This document shows positions 260 to 15,078 of a stretch of DNA of 64,000 nucleotides, piece by piece. The translations under genes and the position numbers were made by a program. The stretch comes from Firmicutes bacterium M10-2 (GTDB lineage Bacteria; Bacillota_I; Bacilli_A; Erysipelotrichales; Erysipelotrichaceae). The number at the start of each line of letters is the position of its first letter. The first letter of the stretch is position 1. The stretch lies in contig KE159681.1 of assembly GCA_000403415.2 (NCBI GenBank), forward strand, positions 145,730 to 209,729, in the 5' to 3' direction. A model generated the notes under the pieces. It had not been told where the DNA came from. It made no database searches and was given only the letters and a program-made list of their open reading frames with translations.

Positions 260-748
260 TTACTGCTCAGTTTCTTCTTGTTCTAAAAACGAATCATCAT
301 CCATTGCGCGGTTCTCGATAATATTTTTCTCCATGGCACGCAATCTTTTTTTAATGTCTTTTTTCGCTTTATGGTTATATACTAATCCGACAAGCCAGCC
401 GTTCATTGCGGCCATTTTTCCGCTTCCTTCAAAATCTTCGATATAAGCTAATCCCGAATGATCATGTTCCAATCGTTCAACTTCATAACGCATCATATTG
501 TTTCCGGACGCGGATTCGAATTTTGCCTCATACACAACAGGATATTCAAATTTGGAAATCGTCACTTTTACGCCTGCTTCTTTTCCCATCTTTGATTTTA
601 GCTTTTTTTTGTATGTGTAATTGTTATGAAGCTGATCTCGCTTCACGTTTTTCCCTGTGCTTTCTTTAATATCATATAAAATAGAAGCCGTAATCACATC
701 AAACAGCTCTTCCGGTGTGACTTCCAGCTCTAAATCGACTTCGATCAT
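260..748 (-). CDS. DUF3284 domain protein
   Basis: A 162-aa soluble protein with the DUF3284 pattern: N-terminal EVDLELEVTPEELFDVI, a central block ending in DFEGSGKMAAMNGWLVG, and a basic tail (KKDIKKRLRAMEKNI). DUF3284 proteins are found in Firmicutes near beta-glucoside/cellobiose PTS genes, and the fold resembles START/SRPBCC proteins; no reaction is known. It is the last gene of the EIIC-MupG-GntR operon and is followed at once by a terminator. A ligand-binding accessory role in sugar uptake is only inferred from context. Confidence 0.8.
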   Translation of the reverse strand: MIEVDLELEVTPEELFDVITASILYDIKESTGKNVKRDQLHNNYTYKKKLKSKMGKEAGVKVTISKFEYPVVYEAKFESASGNNMMRYEVERLEHDHSGLAYIEDFEGSGKMAAMNGWLVGLVYNHKAKKDIKKRLRAMEKNIIENRAMDDDSFLEQEETEQ

Positions 749-800: not shown

Positions 801-1457
801 TTAATTGGAAATCTCAATTGTTTCGATTGTCGGATTATAATACGTTTTTCGTAATAAGATCGGCTTTCCTTCCAAGGTGCGATAAATCGATCGAATCATT
901 ATGATCGGAGTGTTCATCGGTATATCGAGAATATTAACAAACTGCACCGGAATCAGCATAGGATAAAATGTTTGAGTTACATGATATTCTTTTTTGTTTT
1001 CGCATATCGCAACGATCCCGTCAATATCGTGCACATTCTCTTCATAATACGGATAGGTAATATACATTTCATCTACGGTCGCTGTCACATTTCCTTTTTG
1101 TTTATTCATAACAATACGCATGATATCTTCATAAATCGGCGCATTTAATATCGGTGCGATTTCCTCAAAGGTTCGTCGTGTCATATACAATAAGTGTTTG
1201 GTTTCCCCTTCGCTCACCCCTTCGGTAACGGAGTTCTTACGAACAAGATGCTTTTCCGCAACAAATGTCCCTCTCGTTTTATTTCGATATAAGATACCTT
1301 CGTCAACGAGTTCGTCGATTGCTTTACGCACAGTCATTCGGGATACATTGAATTTTTGAGAAAGAGTACGCTCTGAGGGAATAGAGGAGTTCGCCTTCAT
1401 TGAAGAAATTTGGTTCAATAACTCCGATTTCACTTGTTGATACAAAGGTTGGCTCAT
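801..1457 (-). CDS. GntR/HutC-family transcription regulator
   Basis: A 218-aa regulator. Residues about 5-68 form a GntR winged helix (IPSERTLSQKFNVSRMTVRK, then AIDELVDEGILYR); residues about 90-215 form a UTRA effector-binding domain, which in this subfamily often binds a sugar phosphate. It sits between mupG and the DUF3284 gene in the same operon, so it probably represses this cluster in response to a cell-wall amino-sugar phosphate (inference). A possible operator is the ATTTGA-TT-TCAAAT palindrome at 4146-4159, upstream of the operon's main promoter. An AGGAAAG-like ribosome-binding site lies upstream. Confidence 0.88.
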   Translation of the reverse strand: MSQPLYQQVKSELLNQISSMKANSSIPSERTLSQKFNVSRMTVRKAIDELVDEGILYRNKTRGTFVAEKHLVRKNSVTEGVSEGETKHLLYMTRRTFEEIAPILNAPIYEDIMRIVMNKQKGNVTATVDEMYITYPYYEENVHDIDGIVAICENKKEYHVTQTFYPMLIPVQFVNILDIPMNTPIIMIRSIYRTLEGKPILLRKTYYNPTIETIEISN

Positions 1458-2628: not shown

Positions 2629-2862
2629 TTACTTCTTTTTATAATTTTTTTGTTTTTGAATTCTTTTTTGTTTAAGTTCGTGATTTCTTCGGCTTACCCG
2701 CATCATGAGAACACCGACCAAAACGATGGATAACCCTTCAATTACGACAATGAGCGGTTTATCATACATCGGTCCGGTCACGATTACCAAAGTTCCAAGC
2801 GCGATCACAAACAACGGCCAAGATCCCCATTTGTTGTTGGATTGATTTTCTTCTTTCTTCAT
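2629..2862 (-). CDS. Small two-helix membrane protein
   Basis: A 77-aa protein. The start at 2862 is chosen over an upstream in-frame ATG because AGGAGG lies at 2871-2866. Two hydrophobic segments (about residues 10-24 and 29-47) are followed by a very basic lysine-rich tail. It lies between the PTS EIIC and mupG genes in the same operon. No family is recognised; a small accessory of the transporter is a guess from position. Confidence 0.7.
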   Translation of the reverse strand: MKKEENQSNNKWGSWPLFVIALGTLVIVTGPMYDKPLIVVIEGLSIVLVGVLMMRVSRRNHELKQKRIQKQKNYKKK

Positions 2863-2937
2863 AAACCTCCTGCAAAAACGAAAAAGGGAGGATGGCACCA
2901 ACCATCCTTTTCCCTTTTGCTTCTCTATTATTAATTT

Positions 2938-4047
2938 CTATTCTACTTCTTGGGTCCTGTTCGCAAGCAGTACAAATGGTGTCCAGATCGCAAATGAAAC
3001 GGCTAAGTTGATCAATGCAACAACACCTGCCATCAAACTTCCGCCTGTTGCCAAGAATGCATAAATACCAACTGGCATAACCCAAGGGACTTGTACATAT
3101 ACTGGAGGAATGATTCCACCGGCCGTAAACAAGTAAGCGATCAATGTACATACCGGAGGTACGATCAACCATGGAATCAAATAAATCGGATTCAACACGA
3201 TTGGCAAACCGAAGAACCAGAGCAATTGCACAAGGAATGATACAAGGATTGCACTGAACATATTTTGGGAAAGTCCCATCAAAGGTGCTTGGATCCATTT
3301 TTGAATCAATTCGTTTGGATACATTCCGGCACCGGCAACGCAAATTTGAGTAACAATCGCAAAGATGTAGATCGCAACACATCCGGGAATGATTGCCGCA
3401 AAAGCGTTTCCTACTGCAGGAGGTACGTTATCTGGCATTTTGATCGTGATTTTGTGAATCATCAATTGAACATAGATCATAGAAGAAAGCAACCCGACGA
3501 TCAATGCGGTAAACAGACCGCTTGCTCCGGTATATGCGCTTCCCATATAACCCCAGCCGCTTACGGCAATATTTACGGCATCACCGCTTGCAACAGCTTC
3601 AACGCCCAGATCATTCAATGCGCTCACGCTTGCAACATCTACATTGGCTAATGTAAAATCGAACACTGCACTTTGATTCATACAAACCACAACGGCAGAG
3701 AACGCGATAACACCACCCGCAATTGGGTTTACATTGTATGTTTTTGCGATTTGATATCCTAACGCAAACGAGAAAGCAAGGGACAAAATAACAATCGATC
3801 CGAAATAAACATTTCCGTTTACATTGATCAATGGTGTCATGGCAGCAACGAATGAGTTTCCATCACCCCACCAAGAGTTCGGAAGATCACGGAAAAATAC
3901 ATTCAAAAGAACCGCAATACTACCAACCATGGTAATCGGCATGATCGCAATAAAGGCATCACGAATCGCAACAAGATGTTTTTGGTTACCAACTTTGGCA
4001 GCCACAGGCATGAAATGTTCTTCCATCCAATTTAAAAAACCGTTCAT
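2938..4047 (-). CDS. PTS EIIC, lactose/cellobiose family, with internal deletion
   Basis: A 369-aa membrane protein of the CelB/LicC/ChbC EIIC type. It has the usual start (MNGFLNWMEEHFMPVAAKVG), the KMPDNVPPAV motif, and the usual end (ATGG...WTPFVLLANR). Family members run about 450 aa. Here the text passes from LVQLLWFFG straight to LPIVLNPIYLIP near 3208-3216. In LicC-like proteins these blocks are separated by roughly 85 residues containing the IHG/LHG histidine and the NEP glutamate that contact the sugar. The reading frame is intact. As written the protein should not transport or phosphorylate sugar. It is the first gene of the mupG operon, downstream of a cre-controlled promoter. Confidence 0.88.
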   Translation of the reverse strand: MNGFLNWMEEHFMPVAAKVGNQKHLVAIRDAFIAIMPITMVGSIAVLLNVFFRDLPNSWWGDGNSFVAAMTPLINVNGNVYFGSIVILSLAFSFALGYQIAKTYNVNPIAGGVIAFSAVVVCMNQSAVFDFTLANVDVASVSALNDLGVEAVASGDAVNIAVSGWGYMGSAYTGASGLFTALIVGLLSSMIYVQLMIHKITIKMPDNVPPAVGNAFAAIIPGCVAIYIFAIVTQICVAGAGMYPNELIQKWIQAPLMGLSQNMFSAILVSFLVQLLWFFGLPIVLNPIYLIPWLIVPPVCTLIAYLFTAGGIIPPVYVQVPWVMPVGIYAFLATGGSLMAGVVALINLAVSFAIWTPFVLLANRTQEVE

Positions 4048-4094: not shown

Positions 4095-4123
4095 ATTAAA
4101 CATCTATGTAAGCGCTTTGTCAA
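4095..4123 (-). promoter_or_regulatory. Promoter with overlapping cre site for the MupG operon
   Basis: On the minus strand TTGACA (4123-4118), a 17-nt spacer and TTTAAT (4100-4095) form a strong sigma-A promoter. The sequence TGTAAGCGCTTTGTC (plus-strand 4107-4121) matches the CcpA cre consensus with one mismatch and overlaps the -35 and spacer, a repressing position. The ATTTGA-TT-TCAAAT palindrome just upstream (4146-4159) could be the GntR operator. Confidence 0.7.
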
Positions 4124-4249: not shown

Positions 4250-4278
4250 TAAAAAAGACCAATCAATCTGATTGGTCT
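4250..4278 (-). terminator. Terminator of the ROK kinase gene
   Basis: A perfect 10-bp stem (AGACCAATCA 4256-4265, TGATTGGTCT 4269-4278) with a 3-nt loop and a U-run given by the A-tract at 4251-4256. The stem overlaps the kinase stop codon, so the kinase and the MupG operon are separate units. Confidence 0.85.
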
Positions 4279-5182
4279 AGTCCGATTCCCGGCTAAGTGC
4301 GTACATAGCAGCGCCGACAATTCCCGGTTCATCCAATTGAGCAGACACAAGTTCAGCATCCGTCATCGCATCGAAAATTTTTGATTTCCATTTTTCTTCG
4401 AGCCGATCAAAGAAAACATCTTTTCCTTTCATGACTCCGCCTCCGAGTACGATCAAGTCCGGATCGATCACCAAAGAAACGGAAGACAAAAGATTGGAAA
4501 GATCATCAGTCATTTCTTCAACGATTGCGATTGCATCCGCATGCTTCTCTTTCGCAAGATCAAATACTTCTCCGGCATGTTGGATATCCTGAGAAATCTT
4601 TTCTTTTCCTTTGCGTGTGATGGCTGTTCCGCTTGCCCCGCTTTCCACAGCCCCCTTATTCATGATCCCATACGCTTTGTCTTTTTGATTTACGATCATA
4701 TTGCCTACTTCACCGGCAAATCCGTGTCGTCCCATCAAAAGTTGTCCGTCAATTACAGCTGCTCCGCCAATTCCTGTCGAGATTGTCACATAATAAACGA
4801 TTTTCTTTCCTTTTCCGGCTCCAGCTAATGCTTCTCCGATTGCTGCGGCTTTTCCGTCATTGGCTAAATAAACAGGCTTATTTTGCAGACGCTTAGACAA
4901 TGTGCTTGTAAGAGGATACCCTACAAGTTTGGCTAAGTTATTCGCTGCCGTAATAACACCGCGCTCACTGTCGATCAGTCCCGGCACTGCAATTCCAATG
5001 GCTTGAGCTTGCTGATAATCAGGAAGATCAAGCACTAAGTTTGTAATGACATCCACTACATGTTCGGCTCCCTTTTCAGGGTTTGAAGCACTTTTGTTCA
5101 CACAAAGAACTTCTCCATCCTCCCGAATTAGGGCTGCCCGAACATTTGTACCTCCTAAGTCGATTCCGATAAATTTTTTCAT
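4277..5182 (-). CDS. ROK-family sugar kinase without the zinc motif
   Basis: A 301-aa cytoplasmic kinase. It has the phosphate-binding start IGIDLGGTNVRAAL, catalytic Asp109 in LANDGKAAAIGE, the glycine-rich STGIGGA block, and LIVLGGGV near the C-terminus. The usual ROK zinc signature CxCGxxGCxE is absent; the equivalent stretch is NKGAVESGASG, with no cysteines. ROK proteins phosphorylate glucose, ManNAc, GlcNAc or fructose. The neighbouring mupG operon and pfkA-pyk suggest a hexose or amino sugar feeding glycolysis. It is annotated as glucokinase-like; the substrate is not settled. Confidence 0.85.
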   Translation of the reverse strand: MKKFIGIDLGGTNVRAALIREDGEVLCVNKSASNPEKGAEHVVDVITNLVLDLPDYQQAQAIGIAVPGLIDSERGVITAANNLAKLVGYPLTSTLSKRLQNKPVYLANDGKAAAIGEALAGAGKGKKIVYYVTISTGIGGAAVIDGQLLMGRHGFAGEVGNMIVNQKDKAYGIMNKGAVESGASGTAITRKGKEKISQDIQHAGEVFDLAKEKHADAIAIVEEMTDDLSNLLSSVSLVIDPDLIVLGGGVMKGKDVFFDRLEEKWKSKIFDAMTDAELVSAQLDEPGIVGAAMYALSRESD

Positions 5183-14758: not shown

Positions 14759-15078
14759 AATAAGTTCTCCTGACTCAATTTGTGCTCAATCGTTGTAATG
14801 AGTTTTTTCGGCTGCTTGATGGCAACCGCTGAACTTACTCGAACGATTGGCTTGCCGGCAAACCGTTCTTGATGAGCAACCGAAATATCGGCGGCTAGAA
14901 TAATGACGTCCGCTTCGCGGATCACTTCAGACGAAAGTTCGTCCTCAATGCCAATATTGCCTTGGGTTTCCACACAGATGTGATGTCCCCTGTCTTGAGC
15001 CGCTTCGATCAATTTTTCCTTGGCGATATATGTATGCGCGACACCAATTGTGCACGCTGTAACTGCGGCGATATTCAT
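14755..15078 (-). CDS. PTS fructose-family EIIB
   Basis: A 107-aa cytoplasmic domain. The start at 15078 is set by AGGAGG at 15089-15084. The active-site cysteine lies in AAVTACTIGVAHTYIAKEKL; the usual sequence is TACPTGIAHT, so the residues after Cys differ but the fold signature holds. It accepts phosphate from EIIA and passes it to the sugar at EIIC. It overlaps the EIIC start by 4 nt. Confidence 0.92.
   Translation of the reverse strand: MNIAAVTACTIGVAHTYIAKEKLIEAAQDRGHHICVETQGNIGIEDELSSEVIREADVIILAADISVAHQERFAGKPIVRVSSAVAIKQPKKLITTIEHKLSQENLL

Follow-up and report, generated by a model that had tools for sequence, protein, structure and literature searches.

The cellobiose-type PTS permease (EIIC) gene in the window, a stretch of 64,000 nucleotides from the gut bacterium Firmicutes bacterium M10-2 (family Erysipelotrichaceae), has lost an internal segment in frame and, with it, the histidine and glutamate of the substrate site. 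The neighboring genes of its operon are intact, and its operator is shared with nagB. In our judgment this is, with high probability, a deletion that recently inactivated a ChbC-like permease and left the promoter and the downstream genes untouched (Table 1).

Table 1. Features of the EIIC operon and its surroundings (window positions unless a relative's locus is given)
Feature	Position	Strand	Basis
ROK sugar kinase, upstream neighbor	4277..5182	-	family match
-35 box TTGACA	4118..4123	-	identical in L018; 17 bp from -10
cre-like site around AAGCGCTT, mostly in promoter spacer	4107..4120	-	core kept in L018; imperfect consensus match, by eye
-10 box TTTAAT	4095..4100	-	identical in L018
Predicted NagR/ChbR-type operator TTGGTATATACCAA	4080..4093	-	exact-match search of genome
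Truncated Lac/cellobiose-family PTS EIIC (ChbC-like), 369 aa, lacking 94 residues	2938..4047	-	ORF and homologue alignment
Deletion junction, single remaining copy of GGTYTGC repeat flanking 282-bp segment in congener	3204..3210	-	comparison with L018
Small membrane protein, 90 aa, TTG start	2629..2901	-	position kept in L018 and in one related genome; no NCBIfam or Pfam match
GH170 (MupG/ChbE family) phospho-disaccharide hydrolase, intact, 361 aa	1503..2588	-	Pfam MupG_N 322 bits, MupG_C 128 bits
GntR-family regulator (ChbR-like), intact	801..1457	-	family match and synteny
DUF3284 protein (ChbD-like), intact	260..748	-	PF11687, 94.5 bits
Small membrane-protein-like ORF	window 2629-2901; L018 7401-7706; L082 7869-8072; L052 7684-7872; L019 7790-7963; L020 7845-8021

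Extent of the deletion and residues lost

The nearest relative, Erysipelotrichaceae bacterium OPF54 of the same genus (locus L018), encodes an EIIC of 463 aa. Alignment of the two proteins leaves one gap only, of 94 codons (282 bp, in frame), with residues 1-281 matching at 91% and residues 373-463 at 95%. Across the join, the translated ORF passes from LVQLLWFFG directly to LPIVLNPIYLIP; neither a frameshift nor an in-frame stop was found in the window ORF as another cause of the short product. The missing segment is present in all 35 aligned full-length homologues, where it comprises 87-101 residues. An in-frame deletion of about 85 residues had been proposed in the earlier note; the deletion is borne out and the internal gap is real, but its size against the nearest relative is 94 residues.

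ChbC of Bacillus cereus (PDB 3qnq) aligns to the window EIIC as two pieces, 2-265 and 331-423, both of which match around the join. The counterparts of ChbC H250 (in the motif GIHG) and E334 (in NEM) are absent from the 369-aa stub; both fall in the deleted segment, as had been claimed for the sugar-binding His and Glu. Among the full-length homologues, the glutamate is found in 35 of 35 and the histidine in 34 of 35. Of the ChbC site residues, only H250 and E334 are conserved with glucose EIIC, and both are ligand contacts (PMC11393339). Because the segment with these two residues has been removed, sugar binding and phosphorylation would be abolished. Judged by the homology of its remaining parts, the window EIIC is a descendant of the PTS lactose/cellobiose family. 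Its Pfam PTS_EIIC match spans only positions 1-222 of the 319 in the profile, and its score against TIGR00410 (lacE), 222.3 bits as against 359.9 bits for the congener, lies below the curated cut-off of 236 bits, which the congener exceeds.

The junction and its origin

In the congener, the left edge of the segment reads TTCGGTCTGCAC and the right edge TTTGGTCTGCCG; the corresponding window sequence is TTCGGTTTGCCA. The two congener edges, TTCGGTCTGC and TTTGGTCTGC, have the 7-bp repeat GGTCTGC in common, of which the window retains one copy as GGTTTGC. A deletion between two such direct repeats (GGTYTGC) could plausibly have removed the 282 bp in frame, so that short-repeat recombination, as the earlier note had suggested, is a plausible origin. 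Since 7-bp repeat pairs are frequent in this gene (38 with a spacing of 100-600 bp), the repeat is compatible with slippage or recombination and is not proof of either.

The missing segment was sought elsewhere in the genome by protein and by DNA and was not found; the sole match to it in the genome is 35 bp in a paralogue. The species is represented by one genome, assembled in 22 contigs with 3.6% estimated contamination, and the congener EIIC is full length; it could be argued from this that the join arose in assembly, or belongs to a minor or culture-derived variant, and that the normal EIIC of the species is full length as well. We regard this as quite unlikely, given that the join is located inside a 634-kb contig and is exactly in frame, and that no other contig carries the missing segment. 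Assemblers usually collapse sequence at repeats far longer than the 7 bp shared by the edges.

A survey for short EIICs covered 316 genomes of the order and gave matches at E<=1e-90 in 24. Among these 24, an EIIC with this gap occurs in the genome of the window only; no relative with the same short EIIC was seen, in agreement with a true deletion as proposed earlier, and a widespread clade of short EIICs was rejected, there being none in the 316 genomes. A search of viral contigs for further strains gave no relative. The third genome of the genus (G002) has no match to the window EIIC and no MupG_N match, so that the EIIC/GH170 module seems to be absent from it.

At least three other genomes also carry a broken EIIC related to this one. 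The EIIC gene of G212 (L086) carries a frameshift and the rest of its module is intact, as in the window; Lachnospiraceae bacterium A2 (L021) has a module with several lesions; and in G050 (L085) two in-frame stops interrupt the EIIC copy, which has no hydrolase as a neighbor. These lesions are frameshifts, stops or several deletions, in contrast to the one in-frame deletion in the window, and some of them could be sequencing errors. In the A2 locus (L021 6004-8805), the EIIC, DUF3284 and GH170 genes all look decayed.

Gene content, operator and probable substrate

The operon is encoded on the minus strand in the order EIIC, 90-aa membrane protein, GH170/MupG-family enzyme, GntR regulator and DUF3284 protein, and a terminator-like hairpin separates the ROK sugar kinase from the EIIC promoter. 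Gene order is the same in the congener, as are the neighbors on the pyruvate kinase/ROK side, and the congener hydrolase is 89% identical to that of the window. The promoter, the core of the cre-like site and the downstream genes are kept as in the congener, which upholds the earlier description of operon, promoter and cre site as intact. The operator TTGGTATANACCAA, predicted to be of NagR/ChbR type by sequence match, is also conserved in the congener. Apart from the copy at the EIIC promoter, the 2.4 Mb of the genome contain a single further exact copy, which lies about 92 bp upstream of nagB (L104 1501-1514; G000 C16:228515). A small membrane-protein-like ORF after EIIC or EIIA and before the hydrolase is found in the window and in five relatives. 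The window copy has no NCBIfam or Pfam match, and BLAST detects similarity only with the copies of L018 and L082.

This set of EIIC, DUF3284 protein, GH170 enzyme and GntR regulator is that of the chb operon of Lacticaseibacillus paracasei BL23 (chbR-chbC-chbD-chbE, chbBA) and is complete in the window, with EIIC truncated. The two systems have in common the cellobiose-type EIIC, a NagR/DasR-type operator and a regulator target shared with nagB. The window differs in the 94 residues missing from EIIC, the absence of EIIB and EIIA from the cluster, the downstream position of the regulator gene and the extra 90-aa membrane protein. In L. paracasei BL23, growth on N,N'-diacetylchitobiose is lost when chbC or chbE (GH170) is inactivated, and chb and nagB are both targets of the GntR repressor ChbR (PMC12791066). 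From its gene content and operator, the operon would encode a ChbC-like permease, a small membrane protein, a GH170 hydrolase, a GntR repressor and a DUF3284 protein for the uptake and phosphorylation of an amino-sugar disaccharide, and the substrate of its permease is probably N,N'-diacetylchitobiose.

The earlier note had instead assigned the gene to a MupG operon, and a role in MurNAc(-GlcNAc) recycling, with the hydrolase now fed by another MurNAc permease, would be compatible with a broken EIIC. The hydrolase does belong to the MupG family, and it adjoins a PTS permease gene as in Staphylococcus aureus; in addition, contig 17 carries a locus (L087 4691-9416; G000 C17) in which an RpiR-type regulator lies between two murQ genes, beside a MurP-like EIIBCA. 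However, mupG of S. aureus is grouped with murQ, murP and murR (PMC6262408), whereas the window has an EIIC of another family, a GntR regulator in place of MurR, and DUF3284. Neither murQ nor a MurP-type EIIBC was found in the operon, murQ being present on contig 17 only, in what by its gene content is a MurNAc locus of its own, with murQ in duplicate. The combination of a Lac-family EIIC, DUF3284 and GntR is the chb arrangement, and the operator is exactly common to nagB only. Since the gene set and the nagB-shared operator match chb and murQ lies elsewhere, the chb assignment is better supported, and MurNAc recycling by this operon is unlikely.

Neither the window nor the congener encodes a cognate EIIB or EIIA within the cluster or beside it; therefore, even an intact EIIC of this genus would need EIIA and EIIB partners from elsewhere. 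Judged from sequence, EIIA-like genes occur in the clusters of relatives (L019, L020, L052, L082 and L083), together with EIIB-like genes in L082 and L083, and the cluster of one more distant relative also has a GH1-like enzyme. The genome of the window has five PTS_IIA (Lac-type) genes above the Pfam cut-off, all at other loci. The EIIB encoded at about window 14797-15066 was rejected as a dedicated partner: by eye, it has its own fructose-PTS-looking EIIA and EIIC. Contig 1 harbors a second GH170 gene, together with an antiterminator-like gene and genes for EIIBC and EIIA, adjoining a gene for a YdjC-like protein (L051 5250-9385; G000 C1 about 509749-513884), possibly a second system for amino-sugar or beta-glucoside disaccharides. 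Uptake of amino sugars could continue through other intact PTS loci of the genome.

Age of the deletion and fate of the truncated protein

When changes are polarised with G257, the EIIC shows 13 branch-specific changes in the window against 8 in the congener, and the hydrolase 13 against 10, so that there is little excess of amino-acid changes in the EIIC on the window branch. Neutral drift simulated at 0.03 substitutions per site would add about 24 amino-acid changes to the EIIC. Because so few extra changes are seen against this expectation, the deletion may be young or the stub may be constrained; the data fit either. The dS between window and congener is near saturation, which limits dN/dS by gene and makes the age bound rough. 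If the deletion is recent, this would explain why the promoter, the operator and the other genes have not yet decayed.

The open frame and the lack of extra decay argue against loss of function to the extent that a functional stub would also show them. Together with the conserved promoter and operator, they could mean that the stub, as the earlier note had offered as one option, has taken on a new role and been kept for it, perhaps partnering or regulating another EIIC or the GntR repressor. AlphaFold returns confident models for both the stub and the full-length form, the stub being helical with a pLDDT of 87. This confidence, however, derives from full-length homologues and says little on the stability of the stub. 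In comparison with ChbC, the predicted fold drops from a TM of 0.80-0.85 (congener, full length) to 0.57-0.66 (stub), a drop that fits a partly missing transport domain and is silent on stability in the cell membrane. A young lesion would look alike, as 44% of simulated copies are still without an internal stop at 0.02 neutral substitutions per site, and no relative has a similar stub. There is thus no positive evidence for a new role, which we consider very improbable. Its specific form, in which the 369-aa protein would persist as an EIIC scaffold that lacks a sugar site and would regulate, or assemble with, another EIIC, EIIB or the GntR repressor, is to us scarcely credible.

Read as a recent loss of a ChbC-like permease, the locus is a clear example of ordinary gene decay, in which an internal deletion has cost an otherwise intact operon its permease, and it would be wrong, for this strain, to annotate the operon as one of functional sugar use. 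Of more use is a by-product of the analysis: where DUF3284-linked 'MupG' operons have Lac-family EIICs, chitobiose is a better reading of them than MurNAc recycling.
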